Assembly (NCBI GenBank): GCA_002840405.1
Contig: PHAR01000006.1
Coordinates: 62,001-126,000 of the forward strand
DNA length: 64,000 nt
Source of the DNA: Deltaproteobacteria bacterium HGW-Deltaproteobacteria-8
GTDB taxonomy: Bacteria > Desulfobacterota > Desulfovibrionia > Desulfovibrionales > Desulfovibrionaceae
Direction of reading: 5' to 3'
Part shown: positions 14,782-47,546 of the stretch, piece after piece
Layout of the letters: each line of letters opens with the position of its first letter
Position numbering within the stretch: position 1 is the first letter of the stretch
Notes under the pieces: model-generated
What the model was told of the DNA's origin: nothing
Databases searched by the model: none
Seen by the model: only the letters and a program-made list of their open reading frames with translations
Made by a program: the position numbers and the translations under genes

Positions 14782-14823
14782 GCGTTCGGATTTTCGAGGG
14801 TCCCCCCTCGAAAATCCGAACGC
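14782..14823. repeat. Perfect 19-bp inverted repeat with a 4-base loop
   Basis: The arm GCGTTCGGATTTTCGAGGG (14782-14800) pairs perfectly with 14805-14823 around TCCC. It lies 76 bases beyond the stop of the RND permease and upstream of the DUF2892 gene on the same strand. There is no U-run after it, so it is not a standard intrinsic terminator. RNA stabilisation, attenuation or a palindromic element are possible. Confidence 0.85.
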
Positions 14824-21516: not shown

Positions 21517-23873
21517 TCAGCATGTCGGGGCAAGGGGCTCCTTCTCGTGGAACTGCACGGTCTCCTGGGGCATGAAGTCCTCCAGATGCCGGGAGAAGGC
21601 GGCACCCAGGAAGGAGTCGACCCAGACGGAGATGTTGTTGCGCCGAACGTTCTCGCGCAGCTTGTGCATGCGCATCTTGCGTGCGGAAAGCGGCAGCTGG
21701 CAAGCGGCATTCAGCGCATCGGCCACCTCGTCGATGTCGTAGGGGTTCACCAGAAACGCGCCCAGGCGCTGGAACTGCGCCGCAGCCCCGGCGAATTCGC
21801 TTAAGATCAGCGCGCCGGTCTCGGCCACGTTGCTGGCGCAATACTCCTTGGCCACGAGGTTCATGCCGTCGCGCAGGGAGGTGACCATGGCGATGTCCGC
21901 GGCGAGGTAGTTGGCCACCAGCTCGGCCCGGGGCAGGTTGCGGTAGAGGTGGTGGATGGGGACCCAGCCCGGCACCGTGAACTCCCCGTTGATCTGGGTC
22001 ACCAGCTGCTCGATCTCGTTCTTCAAATCCTGGTATTCGCCCACGCCCTCGCGGCTGGGCACCAGGACTTGAATGAAGCTGACCCGCCCGCGCAGCTCCG
22101 GGTAGCGGATGAGCGCGCGCCGGAAGGCCGCCAGCCGCTGGGGGATGCCCTTGGAATAGTCCAGCCGGTCCACGCCGAGCACGATCTTGCGCTGGGGAAA
22201 GGCCGCACGGATGGCGTCCGCGGCCACGGCTGTCTCGCGCCTGGCGGCCAGCCGGGCAAAGGACGCGTAGTCGATGCTGATGGGGAAGCAGCCGATGCGC
22301 ACGCTGCGGCCCTCGACCCCGGCGGTGACCACGGAGCCCCGGCCCCAGACCTCGGTGCGCGGGAAGAGCACCTGCAGGCAGCGCACGAAGTTGCGGCGGT
22401 CGGCCAGGGTCTGGAAGCCCACGAGCTCGAACTCCAGCAGGGCCAGGAGCACCTCCTTGCGCCAGGGCAGCTTGAGGAAGATGTCCGGCGCGGGGAAGGG
22501 GATGTGCAGGAAGAAGCCGCAGCGCCTGTGGGACTCCTGCTCCTTGAGGAACTGGGCTACGTGCATGAGGTGGTAGTCCTGGACCCAGACGTAGTCGTCC
22601 GGGCGCGAGTTTTCGGCCACGGTGCGGGCGAACTTCTGGTTCACGTCGAGGTAGTTGGTCCAGTAGTCGGGCTGGAAGTTGCAGCGTGACTGGAAGTCGT
22701 GGAACAGGGGCCAGATGATCTCGTTGGAGAAGCCCTCGTAGTAGTTGCGGTGCTCGGCCTCGGAAAGCTCGATGGGCAAAAGGTCGTAGCCGGCCTCCTT
22801 GGAGAACCGGGCGAAGCTGGCTGTGGGGTCGCCCTCGCCCGTCTGGCCGGAGGAGCCCACCCACAGGCCGCCGCGATCGCGCAGCACCGGGGCCAGGGCC
22901 GTGATCAGCCCGCCCGTCCCGGCCTTGACGGTCCAGCAGTCGCCCTCGCGCTTGAGGGTAACGGGCAGGCGGTTGGAGACCACGATGAGGCGTCCGCGCA
23001 GCTGGTGCGAGCCTTCCTCCTCGCCGCCGCCGTCCTTGCCGCCGTCCTTGCCATCGTGCAGGGGGCTGCCCACGCCCTGGGGCGGGCCGCTGGAGATGAG
23101 GGCCGAGTGCAGGAACTCCAGCAGGTCGCCGGGCGGCCTGAGCTGGTACCGGGCCAGGCTCGTCTTGCGCTTGCGCGACACAAGAAGCGACAGTCCGGCG
23201 CTGCCCAAGGCCCGGAAGGCGTCCTCGTCGGTCAGGTCGTCGCCCAGGTAGGCCGAGGTGAAGGCGCTGCCATGGGCCTTGGTCTCCTCGGCCAGCAGGC
23301 GTTCCACAACCTTGCCCTTGTTGAAGGCGCCGGAGCGCATCTCCACCCCGCCGTCGAAGAGCAGAACCTCCGCACCGGCCGTGTTGGCGATGAGCCCGAA
23401 GGCGTGGCCGGCCTTGGCCAGGACCTCGGCCGCGCGCGGAGGCGGCATGCCGCGCACGTGCAGCGCCAGGCAGCCGTGCTTGTCCTCCAGGTGTTCACCC
23501 AGGCCGTTGGCCTCGGCCCAGAAGCGGGCGTCGGCCAGGGCCTTTTTCAGCCCGGGCTCAAGGCCCGTGCGCGCCAGCAGGCCCGCAGGGTTGAGCCGCT
23601 CGCCGCCGTGGCTGCCGAAGATCTCCACGCCCTGCTCAAGGCCGAGCAGCGCGGCCACGTCGGCCGTGGGCCGGCCGGAGACGATGACCACGCGCCAGCC
23701 GGGGTTCTGGCAGAGCCCGCTCAGCAGCTTGCGCACGCCGGGGTAGGGGAAGGCCTTGTTGCGGTCTGCGGTGAAGGCGGCCAGGGTGCCATCGTAGTCG
23801 AGCATCAACAGCTTGTGCCTGGCGGCGAGAAAGGTCCTCAGTTCAAGGGACCTGAGTAGTTGCGTCCAGTCCT

Positions 23874-23877
<4 letters not shown>
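21517..23877 (-). CDS. otsBA: Trehalose-6-phosphate phosphatase / synthase fusion (phosphatase first)
   Basis: A 786-residue bifunctional enzyme making trehalose from UDP-glucose and glucose-6-phosphate. Residues ~1-255 are the OtsB HAD phosphatase ([13 protein letters not shown] nucleophile motif, [23 protein letters not shown]). Residues ~305-760 are the OtsA GT20 synthase ([50 protein letters not shown]). All key motifs look intact. Most known bifunctional proteins have synthase first, so this order is unusual. The ATG at 23877 overlaps the treS stop (ATGA) and has GGAGG upstream, so the longer frame to 23925 is rejected. It is the last gene of the mscS-treS-otsBA operon. Confidence 0.94.
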
Positions 23878-27324
<3,447 letters not shown>

Positions 27325-27332
<8 letters not shown>

Positions 27333-28443
27333 GTTCCAGTTCCTTGGGGTCTTGCAGCTCCGGCTTGTCGAGGGAGATTCGCGTCAGGGGCAGGATGTCG
27401 GGGTGCTTTTCCTGAATGTAGCACACCAAACGCTCGCGCACCAGACAGCGCAGATCCCAATTGCGTGACGAACCGGCCGAGCTGACCAGGGCGCGCAGGG
27501 TCAGCGTTGCAGGCCCGGAATCTGTGACCTGCAGGCCGCAGACCCTGCCGTCCCAGAGCTCTCCGGCTTCTTCATGGCAGAGCCGCTCCAACTCCGTGCG
27601 CAGCTCCGCCACCGGGGCGCGGTAGTCCACGCTGAGGAACACGCTGCCCAGGATCTCGGCTGAGGAACGCGTCCAGTTCTGGATGGGTTTTTCCAGGAAG
27701 TACAGCACCGGCACCACCAGGCGGCGCTGGTCCCAGATGCGCACCACCACATAGGTCAGGGTGATCTCCTCCACGCGGCCCCATTCACCCTCCACCACCA
27801 CCACGTCGTCCAGGCGGATGGGCTGGGTGATGGCGATCTGCATCCCGGCGAAGATGGTGGACAGAAACTTCTGGGCCGACAGGCCGGCCACGGCCCCGGC
27901 GATGCCGGCCGAGGCCAGGACGCTGGCGCCGATGTTGCGCGTGACGTCAAAGACCATGAGCGTCGCGGCCAGGGCCACCACGGCCACGATGACCGAGAAG
28001 ACCCGGCGGAACATGCGCACCTGGGTCATGATCTTGCGCGCGCGCAGGTTGTCCTCGGAGAGGAGGTCGTTGGAGTGCTGCAGCCACTGCGCCAGGATGC
28101 CGCCGCAGGCCAGCATGGCCCAGGCGAAGGCTGCGATCCAGCACAGGGCGTGGAGCTTGTGGGCCAGGTCGGCCAGGGTGCCGGGCAGGTCCAGGCCTTG
28201 GGCGGAGAGCCCGGCCAGGGCCAGGTCCAGGCCCAGCAGCGCGGCCATCAGGCGGGTGGGACCCTTGACCAGGTCCAGGACCAGGCTCCAGAACTCCTCG
28301 CCCTGGCGTCTGGCCATGAGCCGCAAGGCGCGCAGGGCCAGGGCGTGGACGACGAGCCCGGCCAGGGCCAGGCCCGTGGTCAGGCCGAGGGTCAAGGCCC
28401 AGGCGCGCAGGAGTGCAAGGGCCGGATCGGAAAGCATGGACAT
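27325..28443 (-). CDS. MscS-family mechanosensitive channel
   Basis: A 372-residue membrane protein with helices at about 12-35, 55-80, 95-115 and 150-170. The pore-lining MscS signature helix follows (ASVLASAGIAGAVAGLSAQKFL), then the beta domain segment IRLDDVVVVEGEWGRVEEITLTYVVVRIWDQRRLVVP. This is the standard MscS core with an N-terminal extension. MscS channels open on hypo-osmotic shock to release solutes. It is the first gene of a compact operon with two trehalose-making enzymes: its stop overlaps the treS start by 8 bases. GAGGAGGG lies 6 bases before the ATG. The palindrome at 28545 lies about 100 bases upstream. Confidence 0.93.
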
Positions 28444-28544
28444 TGAGAACCCTCCTCAGGGGGGCGGCGGCCCGGTTTGAGCAGGGAGAAACGCCGACCA
28501 AAATGTCGCCGGACTCCTGAAGATGTGGCAAAGTGCTCTATTTT

Positions 28545-28565
28545 TTGTGCACAGTCTGTGCACAA
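28545..28565. promoter_or_regulatory. Candidate operator of the mscS-treS-otsBA operon
   Basis: A perfect 21-bp dyad, TTGTGCACA-N3-TGTGCACAA, next to an A/T-run, about 100 bases upstream of mscS and just inside the upstream operon's terminator. The symmetry, half-site length and position fit a dimeric repressor or activator site. The regulator is not identified. Confidence 0.65.
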
Positions 28566-28578
28566 TGCCGCTTTGTGT

Positions 28579-28625
28579 GGAAAACCGCTGGCGCGCAGCC
28601 GATTTCGCTGGCTGCGCGCCAGCGG
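28579..28625 (-). terminator. Terminator of the histidine kinase - SUMF1-like operon
   Basis: A perfect 16-bp stem, CCGCTGGCGCGCAGCC pairing with GGCTGCGCGCCAGCGG around a 9-base loop, is followed on the minus strand by TTTTCC. It is 40 bases beyond the SUMF1-like stop codon. Confidence 0.88.
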
Positions 28626-28664
28626 CGGGGGATGAGGCAACCGCTCGTGCCGGCGGGCGGAACC

Positions 28665-29738
28665 TCAACGATGGGAGATTTTGGCCGGGCCGTCCTTGGA
28701 TTCCGCCCTTGGGCGCAGCAGGCGCAGGCCATAGAAGGCCGTGTGCAGGTCGGGCCAGCCCCGGCTGCGGTTGGCCGAGCGCAGGGTCGAGGCCTTGGTC
28801 ACCCAGGAACCGCCGCGCAGCACGCGTGACACGCCCTCGCTCGCGTTCTGCGGGTTCTCCCGCGGGGAGCGGTCGTAGTAGTGCGCGTCGTACACGTCCT
28901 CGCACCACTCCCAGAGATTGCCGTGCATGTCGTGCAGGCCGAAGGCGTTGGGCTGGAAGCTGGCCACAACGTTTGTGTGCATGTTGGGCCAGGTCCGGAC
29001 CTTTGGCCTGGCCGTCTTGCGGCGCGACTTGCGCGACTTGCGCTTGGACACGGTCCGCTCCGCAGGCAGGCTGTAGCGCTTCTCGAAGCTGGCCTGGTCC
29101 TGGCTGATGGCGTCGCCGAAGGCGTAGGGGGTCAGGGTGCCCGCCCGTGCGGCGTATTCCCACTCGGCCTCGGTGGGCAGGCGGAAGGTCTGGCCGCTCT
29201 TCTTGCCCAGGGCCTTTGCGTAGGCCTTGGCCATGTCCCAGGAGATCATGTCCACGGGGTAGTCGTCGCCATTGGCGATGAGCGAGGGGTTCTTGCCCAG
29301 CACGGCCTTCCACTGGCCCTGGGTGACCTCGGTTGCGCCCAGCCAGAAGCCGGAGACGCAGACTTCGTGCTGCGGGCCTTCGTCCGGGTTGCGGCCGGGC
29401 TCGTCCGCGGGGCTGCCCATGATGAAGCAGCCTGGCGGCACCCAGTTGAAGACCATGCCGGTCTTGGGCTCGGTCCAGGTGGCTCCGGCAGGCGGATCGC
29501 CCGGCTTGGGCAGGAACTCCGGGGGGGTGGCCTTGTGGGCCACGGCGCTCGCCTGCGTGGCGTTGGCCTGCGTGGCGTTCGCCTCGCTTCTCGCGTCCTC
29601 GGCCGAAACCTGGGCCAAGGCAGGAGCCACCAGGCACAGGGTTAGCAGCAGGGCCAAGAGCATGGCCTGCGGCTGAGCGCGCAGCAGAGGTCTTTGCGGC
29701 GCGGACTTCCGGCGCGCCATGGAGCAGGCTGTCCCCAT
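28665..29738 (-). CDS. Secreted SUMF1/FGE-fold protein
   Basis: A 357-residue protein with a signal peptide (AMLLALLLTLCLVAPALA, cleavage near residue 42) and an Asn/Ala/Thr/Gln-rich linker. A formylglycine-generating-enzyme-type domain (~85-345) has FIMGS, EVTQGQWKAVLG, PVDMISWDMAKAYAKAL, FRLPTEAEWEYAARAG, GNLWEWCEDVYD and VLRGGSW. The C-terminal region (LRSANRSRGWPDLHTAFYGLRL) lacks the Cys pair that binds copper in true FGE, so sulfatase activation is unlikely. A KR-rich insert (~233-250) is unusual. Its start overlaps the stop of the histidine kinase gene by one base (TGATG), implying coupling. A structural or ligand-binding role in the periplasm is my inference. Confidence 0.85.
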   Translation of the reverse strand: MGTACSMARRKSAPQRPLLRAQPQAMLLALLLTLCLVAPALAQVSAEDARSEANATQANATQASAVAHKATPPEFLPKPGDPPAGATWTEPKTGMVFNWVPPGCFIMGSPADEPGRNPDEGPQHEVCVSGFWLGATEVTQGQWKAVLGKNPSLIANGDDYPVDMISWDMAKAYAKALGKKSGQTFRLPTEAEWEYAARAGTLTPYAFGDAISQDQASFEKRYSLPAERTVSKRKSRKSRRKTARPKVRTWPNMHTNVVASFQPNAFGLHDMHGNLWEWCEDVYDAHYYDRSPRENPQNASEGVSRVLRGGSWVTKASTLRSANRSRGWPDLHTAFYGLRLLRPRAESKDGPAKISHR

Positions 29739-31954
29739 CAGCGCCCGGCCTTGACTGGCGGGGTCTTGGGCAGCAGCACGGCCACGGTTGTCTGGCCGGG
29801 CACGGAGGCGTCCAGGCGGATATGTCCGCCGTGGAACTCGGCGATGCGCCGGGCCGAATAGGTGCCCAGGCCGGTGCCATTGGCCTTGTCGGCGGTGACG
29901 TACTTTTCGAAGAAACGATCGCGGATGGACAGAGGCACCTCGCCTTTGTTGCGCACGGTTATGCGTGCCTGATGGCCCAGGTCCTCCAGATCAACCTCAA
30001 CAACGCCGCCCTTGGGCGAGGCCTCCAGGGCGTTCTTCAAGAGATTGGAGAGCATGGTGGAGCAAAGGGTCTCCTCGCAGGAGATGACCAGCCCCGGAAT
30101 GGGCGCCGGGGGCGCCCCGTTCAGCGTCAGCCGCACGTGCTTGTCCTTCAGGGACGGGAGCAGCGCCAGGCTTTCGCGGGCGTCCTGCACCAGGGCCACA
30201 AGGTCGGCCTGGACCGGCTCAAGGGTGAGGTTGCCGCGCTCGATGCGCGAGAGCTTCAGGTAGGCGTCGAGGATGCGCAGCATGTTCCCGGCCGAGACCC
30301 CCAGCCGGGCGACCCAGCCGCGTTGCTCGTCGGTGAGGTTCGGTTCGCGCAGGAGCAGCTGCGGCAGGCTGGCGAAGCCCACCAGGGGGCTGCGCAGGTC
30401 GTGGCGCATGATGTGCTCCACGCTGTCCCTGGCCTGCTCGCGCTGGGTGCGTTCGGTGATGTCCTCGATGACGACCATGACCGCGCGCAAGGCCTGGTCC
30501 TCGTCGCGGATGGGGATGGCCGCGCAGTGGACCACGGCATGCCCGGCCGCGCCTGGGGTCTCGATGTCGAGCACCTGGACGGGCGCGGGGTCTTCCCCGG
30601 CGATGGCCCTGGCCAGGACGAAGTCTTCGGGGCGCAGGGCCTCTCCGCTGTCGTGCCGCCAGGCCCGGAAGCCCGCGCCCAGGTCCGGCGAGCTCTCCGT
30701 CGACTCGCCCGCCGGTCCCCAGATCTGGCGGCTGGCCTGGTTGGCGTAGAGGATGCGGCCGCTCGGGTCGGACATCCACACGCCCACGGGCAGGGCCTCC
30801 ATGATCATGCGCAGCAGGGCCTCGCTCTTGCGCACCTCCACCTCTGCGGCTTCCCGCGCGGTGATGTCCTCGGACAGGGCCTCGGCCATGTCGTCGAGCG
30901 TCTTGGCCAACAGCGCCAGCTCGCCGAACTCCTCGGGCGCGCCGCTGCGCGCGTCCAGGTCGCCGCTGCCCAGGCGCCGGGCCACGGCGGCCAGGCGCTC
31001 CACCGGGCGGCTGATGACGATGCCGCCCACCACCCAGGCCACGAGGATGGCCAAAAACGCCGCTCCGGCCAGGAACGACAGGTCGCGGTACAGGGTGTTG
31101 ATGGCCCCGGTCAGGGCCTGCTGCTCCGGGATGCCGATGGAGATGTAGAGGTAGGGCTCGGCCTCGGGACGCAGGCGCAGCTGGGTGTAGGCCACGATGC
31201 GGCGCACGCCGTCGGCGAAGGTCACCGTGGCCGTGCCCAGGGTGTTCGGCCCGCTGACCTCGTTCCACAGGTCCATGGCGATCTTCTGGCCCGTGGGGCT
31301 GGTCTCCGTCGCTGCGGGAAAGCGGAAGATGCGCTTGCCCGAGTGGTCGGCGATGGACAGGACCGACCCCGGCGGCAGGGAGGCCACGTTGAAGATGCGC
31401 TCGTAGCGGTCGGGCCGCAGCGCCGTGGCGAGCAGGCCCAGGGCCTGGCCGTCGTTTCCGGTGATGGGGTAGGCGAAGTGCAGAAGCGGCGCGGACGTGG
31501 TGCCGGGCAGGCCCAGGTTGAAGTCGCCCACGGTGAACTCACCGCTTTGCAGGGCCGTGTCGAAGTGCTGCCCGGCCTTGAGCCGCACTGGGCGGTCGAG
31601 GTGCAGGGCCGAGCCGAAGATCTGGCCTTGCGCGTCCGTAGCCACGATGTTGGTGAAGACGAAACTCTGGGTGCGCAGCCTGCGCAGGATGGTGCTGGTG
31701 GCCTGGGCGTCCAGGGCCTTGACCTGGGGCATCTGGGCCAGAAGCGAGAGCAGCTGCTCCGCGCGCATGGTGATGAGCTGCTGCTCGCTGGCCAGGAACT
31801 GGGCCACGCGCAAGGCCTCGGCCTGGGCGTCCTTGATGTCCCGTTCGCGGTTCTCCAGGCTCGAGTGCAGGATGACCCCCAGTGCAGGCAGCACTGCGAG
31901 GAGCACCAGCGTGAGCAGGCTGTTGCGCAGTGAGCTGAAGAAGAGGTTTTTCAT
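29738..31954 (-). CDS. Cache-HAMP-PAS sensor histidine kinase
   Basis: A 738-residue membrane kinase. TM1 at ~10-30, a periplasmic Cache-type sensor (~35-290) and TM2 at ~295-318 precede HAMP (VISRPVERLAAVARRLGSGDLDARSG). A PAS domain (~385-510) with YANQASRQIWGP follows, and then a transmitter. The H-box is of the HDLRSP type (IMRHDLRSPLVGF). NLLKNALEASP is the N-box, and the later RNKGEVP...GTGLGTYSARRIAE region is the variant ATP lid seen in this kinase group. It is co-transcribed with the SUMF1-like gene (1-base overlap) and follows the sigma-54 regulator gene on the same strand, so they may form a pair. Confidence 0.93.
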   Translation of the reverse strand: MKNLFFSSLRNSLLTLVLLAVLPALGVILHSSLENRERDIKDAQAEALRVAQFLASEQQLITMRAEQLLSLLAQMPQVKALDAQATSTILRRLRTQSFVFTNIVATDAQGQIFGSALHLDRPVRLKAGQHFDTALQSGEFTVGDFNLGLPGTTSAPLLHFAYPITGNDGQALGLLATALRPDRYERIFNVASLPPGSVLSIADHSGKRIFRFPAATETSPTGQKIAMDLWNEVSGPNTLGTATVTFADGVRRIVAYTQLRLRPEAEPYLYISIGIPEQQALTGAINTLYRDLSFLAGAAFLAILVAWVVGGIVISRPVERLAAVARRLGSGDLDARSGAPEEFGELALLAKTLDDMAEALSEDITAREAAEVEVRKSEALLRMIMEALPVGVWMSDPSGRILYANQASRQIWGPAGESTESSPDLGAGFRAWRHDSGEALRPEDFVLARAIAGEDPAPVQVLDIETPGAAGHAVVHCAAIPIRDEDQALRAVMVVIEDITERTQREQARDSVEHIMRHDLRSPLVGFASLPQLLLREPNLTDEQRGWVARLGVSAGNMLRILDAYLKLSRIERGNLTLEPVQADLVALVQDARESLALLPSLKDKHVRLTLNGAPPAPIPGLVISCEETLCSTMLSNLLKNALEASPKGGVVEVDLEDLGHQARITVRNKGEVPLSIRDRFFEKYVTADKANGTGLGTYSARRIAEFHGGHIRLDASVPGQTTVAVLLPKTPPVKAGR

Positions 31955-32032: not shown

Positions 32033-32064
32033 GGAGGCCACAGGGCGTGTGCCCTGTGGCCTCC
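32033..32064. repeat. Perfect 14-bp inverted repeat between the sigma-54 regulator and the kinase
   Basis: GGAGGCCACAGGGC-GTGT-GCCCTGTGGCCTCC lies in the 246-base gap between the response regulator stop and the kinase start. The U-run on its plus-strand side comes before the stem, so on the transcribed minus strand the hairpin is followed by A residues and is not a normal intrinsic terminator. Confidence 0.8.
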
Positions 32065-32200: not shown

Positions 32201-33718
<1,518 letters not shown>

Positions 33719-33746
33719 ACCCAAGGCTCCTGATTCAAGCAAATCG

Positions 33747-34109
33747 TTACTGCGCATTGGCTTCATAGCCCATGCTGCGCAGTTTTTCGAAGATCCAGCC
33801 CAGGACGAGGGAGAGCCGCTCGTGGGCGTGCCCGCCCGAGGGCAGGTCGCCCTGTTCGCCTGCGGCGTAGATCTCCCTGGCGTACGAAGCCAGCGCCTGC
33901 ACCGGCAACAGCCCGGTCAGGCTGGCCAGGGAATGGGCGGCGTCCATGACTGCTGCCGCGTTCCCAGCGGCCATGGCCTGATCCAGCTCGCGCAGGCGCT
34001 GCTCGCCGGCGGCCAGGAACAGCGCGCCCACCTTGGCGGGCAGGCGCAGGGCGGCCTTGTCGAAGTCCACTCCCCGGCATTCCGCAGGCACAGAGTCCAA
34101 TCCCGGCAT
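33747..34109 (-). CDS. HPt-domain-like phosphotransfer protein
   Basis: A small all-helical protein (120 residues from the chosen ATG). The segment AAGNAAAVMDAAHSLASLTGLLPVQALASYAREIY matches the phosphotransfer helix of HPt proteins, with His59 as candidate phospho-acceptor. The usual His-x-Leu-Lys-Gly is His-Ser-Leu-Ala-Ser here, so the Lys and Gly are missing. ATG codons occur at 34115 and 34109; the second has GAGGAG at 9 bases and is preferred. It lies between a PAS protein and a sigma-54 regulator, the position expected for a relay protein. Assignment rests on the helix pattern and context, so it is moderate. Confidence 0.65.
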   Translation of the reverse strand: MPGLDSVPAECRGVDFDKAALRLPAKVGALFLAAGEQRLRELDQAMAAGNAAAVMDAAHSLASLTGLLPVQALASYAREIYAAGEQGDLPSGGHAHERLSLVLGWIFEKLRSMGYEANAQ

Positions 34110-34122
34110 GATCATGCGCTCC

Positions 34123-34599
34123 TCACTGCTCTGCGGCGCGCGTTTTTGCGCCGGGGTCGTCGGGGAAAAATTCCAGCACCAGCCCACGGACCTGGCCCTC
34201 TGGGCCACGCAGGGGGGACAGGGTCCACCAGCGGTAGTCCTGGCCGTCCGGCCCTTCCAGCGCGTCTGGCAGGGGCAGGCCCAAGGCCTGGCCGCCGGAC
34301 ACGGCCTCGTGCAGCAGCGCCAGATCGTCCGTTGGCTGGGCCAGGGTCTTGACCGCCAGGCGGTGGACCCGCGAGTACTCCTTGCCCACAAAAGCGGCCG
34401 GGGGCAGCTGCAACAGGCGTGCGTAGGGCTTGTTGGCCGCGAGGTAGACCAGGCCCGAGTCCAGCAGGGCTGCGGGGAACGGACGCTCCTCGGCCTGCAC
34501 CAGCCAGGACGCGGCTGCGTCCTGCACCGGCACACCCTGGGCCAGGGCCTCGGCCGCCAGTTCCGGCAGGCTGCGGGGGAGATCGTTGGGAACAGTCAT
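34123..34599 (-). CDS. Stand-alone PAS-domain protein
   Basis: A 158-residue soluble protein consisting of little more than one PAS domain: an N-terminal helical cap (LPELAAEALAQGVPVQDAAASWLV), LDSGLVYLAANKPYARLLQLPPAAFVGK, and the C-terminal strands YRWWTLSPLRGPEGQVRGLVLEFF. There is no transmitter or DNA-binding domain. AGGAGGGGG just before the ATG at 34599 fixes the start. It is the first gene of a PAS-HPt-NtrC run, with 13 bases to the next start, so it may supply sensory input in trans. A bound ligand cannot be predicted. Confidence 0.75.
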   Translation of the reverse strand: MTVPNDLPRSLPELAAEALAQGVPVQDAAASWLVQAEERPFPAALLDSGLVYLAANKPYARLLQLPPAAFVGKEYSRVHRLAVKTLAQPTDDLALLHEAVSGGQALGLPLPDALEGPDGQDYRWWTLSPLRGPEGQVRGLVLEFFPDDPGAKTRAAEQ

Positions 34600-40712: not shown

Positions 40713-40757
40713 AAAAATGACACGGGGCAGGAAGCGATTCCTGCCCCGTATCATTTT
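40713..40757. terminator. Bidirectional terminator after the chemoreceptor gene
   Basis: ACGGGGCAGGAA-GCGA-TTCCTGCCCCGT, a perfect 12-bp stem, is extended by AAAATGA/TCATTTT arms across one mismatch. U-runs are available on both strands between convergent genes. Confidence 0.9.
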
Positions 40758-47530: not shown

Positions 47531-47546
47531 TGGCACGGCACATGCT
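47531..47546 (+). promoter_or_regulatory. Candidate sigma-54 promoter of the lytic transglycosylase gene
   Basis: TGGCACG-GCAC-ATGCT matches the TGGCACG-N4-TTGCW consensus at every fixed position but one, with GG at -24 and GC at -12 properly spaced. It lies 178 bases upstream of the MltC-like gene in a 237-base gap with no other recognised feature. Confidence 0.5.

Follow-up and report, generated by a model that had tools for sequence, protein, structure and literature searches.

The window analysed here (the whole stretch of DNA, 64,000 nucleotides long) contains a minus-strand operon, mscS-treS-otsBA, in which a gene for an MscS-type mechanosensitive channel (27325–28443) is followed by a trehalose synthase/maltokinase fusion (23874–27332) and a trehalose-phosphatase/trehalose-phosphate synthase fusion (21517–23925). 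The N-terminal part of the treS fusion scored above the NCBIfam cut-off, and the maltokinase part scored 295 bits, under its cut-off of 375. A gap of 221 bp separates mscS from an upstream gene for a SUMF1/FGE-sulfatase-domain protein (28665–29738). Further upstream, and also on the minus strand, are genes for a sensor histidine kinase with HAMP, PAS, HisKA and HATPase domains (29738–31954) and for a sigma-54-activating response regulator containing GAFTGA (32201–33766), which was not one of the genome's 24 HTH_8 matches, as well as a frame with an Hpt-domain match (33747–34535).

After the SUMF1 gene, a strong terminator-like hairpin with 16-bp arms and a 9-nt loop, followed by TTTT on the minus strand, was found at 28585–28625 (RNA fold −40.2 kcal/mol). 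The terminator scan, with a loop limit of 8, made no call at this hairpin, and neither sigma-70 promoters nor terminators were called within 28400–28700. Within the gap, GG-N10-GC elements occur only inside the hairpin, which also contains a degenerate sigma-54-like element, TGGCGCGCAGCCAGCG (28606–28621, minus strand; 9/12), that is not significant alone (186/500 shuffles equal it). No match to phage records was found for 28440–28700.

Between this hairpin and mscS, the sequence TTGTGCACAGTCTGTGCACAA at 28545–28565 forms a perfect dyad with a symmetry of 10+1+10 bp, located 102–122 bp before the start codon of mscS (28443). An earlier note on this DNA had described a perfect palindrome that is not part of the neighbouring terminator; its sequence and symmetry were confirmed exactly at this position, and the hairpin was shown to be a separate element. 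The dyad, which has no strand, includes TTGTGCA-N7-TGCACAA and can also be viewed as a repeat of the self-palindrome TGTGCACA, with the two copies spaced 11 bp apart. From here to mscS, no sigma-54 −24/−12 element was found (at most two mismatches; GG-N10-GC also scanned).

The same note held the symmetry to be far above chance, which is true of the gap and not of the window. Dinucleotide shuffling of the 221-bp gap gave such a dyad in just 6/3000 cases, and shuffling of its hairpin-free part of 141 bp in 3/3000, which speaks against a functionless chance palindrome. In the window, on the other hand, a mean of 0.7 perfect dyads with arms of at least 10 bp and a gap of at most 6 was expected per 64 kb (20 dinucleotide shuffles) and five were found, TTGTGCACAGTCTGTGCACAA included; such an expectation speaks for a chance origin, which is on balance rather unlikely. 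Other perfect dyads of the window, at 14782–14823, 32033–32064 and 40722–40749 (arms of 19, 14 and 12 bp, respectively), are perhaps terminators.

As RNA, either strand of the dyad folds into a 9-bp stem with a 3-nt loop (−11.5 kcal/mol, z −2.4), a fold equalled by 5/200 and 2/200 shuffles for the two strands. Such a fold would suit a role in the operon mRNA as a leader hairpin, as would the sigma-54 elements that three relatives carry upstream of the dyad's position (see below). Against this, a T-run after the dyad is absent on both strands and the sequence differs at this place in relatives, and a leader hairpin is considered very unlikely. The missing T-run also sets the dyad apart from an intrinsic terminator, in which a T-run follows a GC-rich stem.

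The genus set consisted of 15 genomes, including that of the window (G000). High-score trehalose synthase matches (E = 0) were found in nine (G000, G003, G004, G005, G007, G008, G009, G013, and G014), and the matches in G001 and G006 were weak only. No mscS match was found in G007 within the stretch read, and the mscS-treS pair was compared between the own genome and seven relatives. Conservation upstream of orthologous operons, whose absence the earlier note had named as refuting its prediction, was not observed: the dyad was present in 0/7 orthologous regions, and TTGTGCA pairs within 250 bp before mscS were found in none of the seven relatives. Only a single TGCACAA at −162 before mscS was seen in G004, and the few TTGTGCA-N7-TGCACAA sites with three mismatches in the fetched loci were all located more than 5 kb from mscS. 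The absence from all seven regions is as a chance palindrome would have it. At up to two mismatches, the 21-mer was found in 4/59 genomes (the own genome, G013, G037, and G042), and the site in G013 was on a different contig from its operon, inside a 675-aa open frame.

Other motifs were found before mscS in the relatives. Sigma-54 elements with 12/12 consensus positions were present in G004 (TGGCACGTCCCCTGCA) and G008 (TGGCACGCGCCCTGCA), 174 and 164 bp before mscS, and one with 11/12 in G005, so that the three span 164–174 bp before mscS; 0/500 shuffles equalled the former two and 4/500 the latter, numbers that overstate the motif, as it was spotted by eye on the same sequences before counting. 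The best score in G014 was 9/12 (82/500 shuffles), and G003, G009, and G013 scored 7–8. The degenerate element within the hairpin of the own gap occupies the aligned position of the 12/12 elements in G004 and G008. Besides, exact TTCCnGGAA was found at −105 to −71 before mscS in 3/7 relatives (G004, G005, and G014; shuffle mean 0.041, with three reached in 0/2000) and in 4/7 at up to one mismatch (5/2000 shuffles), again with numbers that overstate a motif first noticed by eye in these sequences; it was not found in the own gap. The statement that only this gap can hold the operon promoter does not apply genus-wide, as mscS of G013 lies about 93 bp after the SUMF1 gene and the dyad is absent there.

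In the own genome, no second site for the 21-mer was found at up to two mismatches, which again suits a chance palindrome. At three mismatches, two sites were found besides the dyad (one in the backward control; about one per genome expected by chance), one inside an 803-aa frame (C7:12395) and the other in the probable enhancer of a ZraP-like gene (C3:339179). Neither precedes a recognisable osmolyte gene, and the suggestion that the motif might mark other such genes thus found no support. TTGTGCA-N7-TGCACAA occurs once exactly in this genome, as the dyad, once with one mismatch, at C3:339179, and at 10 sites with up to two mismatches compared to two in the backward control. Exact inverted pairs (TTGTGCA and TGCACAA) with a spacer of 3–33 bp were found only at zraP, at C4:3007 and at the dyad (control 0). 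The pair at C4:3007–3048 has a 28-bp spacer and is located between divergent genes, of which those on the plus strand are apparently dsrM-like.

The C3:339179 site is one of four TTGTGCA half-sites clustered within 3021 bp (0.36 expected; four reached in 0/200 shuffles). From this site, the gene order is a sigma-54 element, the ZraP-like gene (Pfam Metal_resist), a histidine kinase gene and a gene for an NtrC-family response regulator with GAFTGA and HTH_8. The region C3:339179–339300, in which TTGTGCA half-sites and the sigma-54 element precede the ZraP-like gene, is likely the enhancer of the ZraR-like regulator. The names ZraP-like and ZraR-like were given by context because both proteins scored under the NCBIfam cut-offs (ZraP, 35.6 with a cut-off of 200; ZraR, 392 with a cut-off of 760, other NtrC-family models scoring higher).

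This arrangement is conserved within the genus. From the 15 genomes, 13 zraP-like upstream regions, one per genome, were compared, G006 (contig end) and G011 (weak match) having been excluded before counting. A sigma-54 element 93–108 bp before the zraP-like start was present in 13/13, ending in ATGCT in 12 and in CTGCT in G013, and all 13 regions contained at least two exact TTGTGCA half-sites, in total 34 in 1911 bp compared to 2.0 expected (maximum of 8 in 500 shuffles). In at least 10/13 genomes, a match to a sigma-54 regulator followed on the same strand at a distance of 2.2–2.5 kb; for G002, G005, and G014 none near the zraP-like gene was seen among the matches listed. The conserved inner pair has a spacer of 6 bp, and a 7-bp spacer was found only for the outer pair of G000 and G012 (2/13). 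At a second ZraP-similar locus, G006 has a sigma-54 element preceded by one TTGTGCA-N7-like site, but G004 and G008 lack an exact half-site there, and the locus was set aside. Across the 59 genomes, TTGTGCA-N7-TGCACAA at up to one mismatch was found in 16, own included. Among 15 such loci read (some further sites in the 16 genomes lie outside this set), a sigma-54-like element is within 250 bp in only two, L147 (zraP of G012) and L146 (G006), and 11, L147 included, are inside an open frame of at least 80 aa; outside zraP the pattern is therefore mostly background.

The half-site of the dyad is identical to that of this conserved enhancer in the same genome, which is the main point for our tentative reading of the dyad as a species-specific site for the ZraR-like NtrC-family regulator, or for a paralogue that shares its TTGTGCA half-site. 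That the arms match an independently conserved half-site also argues against a chance palindrome. The main points against the ZraR-type reading are the lack of a downstream sigma-54 promoter, the spacing, the non-conservation and a search-driven discovery, the link to ZraR having been reached by searching outward from the dyad. If the reading is correct, a site for a dimeric regulator would have been acquired in this lineage, and its likeliest binder would be the ZraR-like response regulator encoded on contig C3 or a TTGTGCA-reading paralogue, each subunit reading TTGTGCA in half-sites that face each other over 7 bp. Bound upstream of mscS-treS-otsBA, such a regulator could couple the channel and trehalose genes, in a direction that may be either positive or negative, to a two-component signal that by analogy would be envelope or metal stress. 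A dimeric regulator of the osmotic operon had been predicted in the earlier note; the dimer-operator form and the conserved TTGTGCA in the arms make a dimeric regulator plausible, whereas control of the osmotic operon by it is conjectural, with the dyad in 0/7 orthologous regions.

Compared to known systems, the dyad resembles the ZraR/DVU3381-type enhancer in its inverted TTGTGCA half-sites, as at the own zraP-like enhancer. It differs in that it is a single pair rather than an array, has a 7-bp spacer compared to the 6 bp of the conserved inner zraP pair, is without a downstream sigma-54 promoter, lies before a channel/trehalose operon, and is not conserved at the orthologous genes. The inner TGCAC/GTGCA inverted repeat is common to the dyad and the NtrC-type site (TGCAC...GTGCA), and the spacing appears to differ from the NtrC consensus. 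MetJ boxes are tandem 8-bp palindromes with a spacing of 8; the dyad is similar in that it has two self-palindromes of 8 bp offset by about one helical turn, at a spacing of 11, not 8. DVU3384 of D. vulgaris is a zraP gene. The sites of sigma-54 response regulators in D. vulgaris are mostly palindromes with arms of 4–6 bp, 3–8 bp apart (PMC3333781). In passages of PMC4641369, DVU3381 is classed under envelope stress, with DVU3382-DVU3381 and DVU3384 as targets, and the TGT/ACA motifs of several sigma-54 activators resemble one another, at 9, 11 or 12 bp; on this scale, the inner zraP pair is at 12 and the dyad at 13. A TTGTGCA half-site thus need not mean ZraR, because several activators have such similar motifs and because DVU3384 is also listed, in a passage of PMC3333781, as a target of a second regulator, DVU0621. 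The words 'trehalose' and 'mechanosensitive' do not occur in the main text of PMC4641369. Literature titles on TTGTGCA and sigma54 included none on Desulfovibrio, and titles and the beginnings of abstracts on ZraP or on trehalose, osmotic or mechanosensitive topics in Desulfovibrio contained nothing about an mscS-treS-otsBA operon.

The single-copy operator would also suit a local regulator, and the dyad could be the site of another dimeric regulator with the operon as its sole target, for example the neighbouring response regulator (32201–33766) or a non-sigma-54 repressor. The neighbour's GAFTGA is in line with this, and the genes for the response regulator and the kinase are next to the operon in 4/8 mscS-treS genomes (G000, G005, G013, and G014), three of these four with a SUMF1 match. 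In G003, G004, G007, and G008, however, regulator and operon are on separate contigs. Furthermore, no TTGTGCA-N7-TGCACAA site at up to three mismatches was found in 10 loci around the neighbouring regulator and its orthologues (own included) or in the gene clusters of the three relatives where regulator and operon are linked, and an alignment of the gap between regulator and kinase genes in these three and the own genome showed no common dyad evident by eye. Such a regulator is rather unlikely.

Taken further, the ZraR-type reading would imply regulatory rewiring between sister species: the species of the window would have lost the sigma-54 promoter and TTCCnGGAA elements still found before mscS-treS-otsBA in some relatives and gained a perfect ZraR-type site, so that osmolyte synthesis and the pressure-relief channel would answer to a two-component system for envelope/metal stress, perhaps via a non-sigma-54 promoter. 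We regard this scenario as improbable. If true, it would be a concrete, testable case of operator turnover, with the control elements of a single operon apparently differing, within a stretch of about 200 bp, among eight genomes of one genus, and a stress two-component system would be linked to the control of trehalose and MscS; otherwise, the dyad would be an ordinary single palindrome.

A scan of public DNA with the dyad as a pattern of 18 specified bases gave 26 stretches in genome_contigs, where about four were expected by chance assuming even base use, and two in viral_contigs. Five matches from Actinoplanes/Paractinoplanes had flanking DNA common to all, and 3/5 were inside one reading frame, presumably amylase-like; these are probably a coincidence of coding. 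Several other matches appeared by eye to be longer hairpins. By title, none of the matches was from a Desulfovibrio-group organism and one was from an 'uncultured proteobacterium', in a collection from which records near the own genome were possibly excluded. No operator context common to these matches was seen, and they were set aside as relatives of the operator. Elsewhere in the window, TGGCACGGCACATGCT at 47531–47546 (plus strand) has exactly the sequence of the sigma-54 element in the zraP-like promoter of G004.
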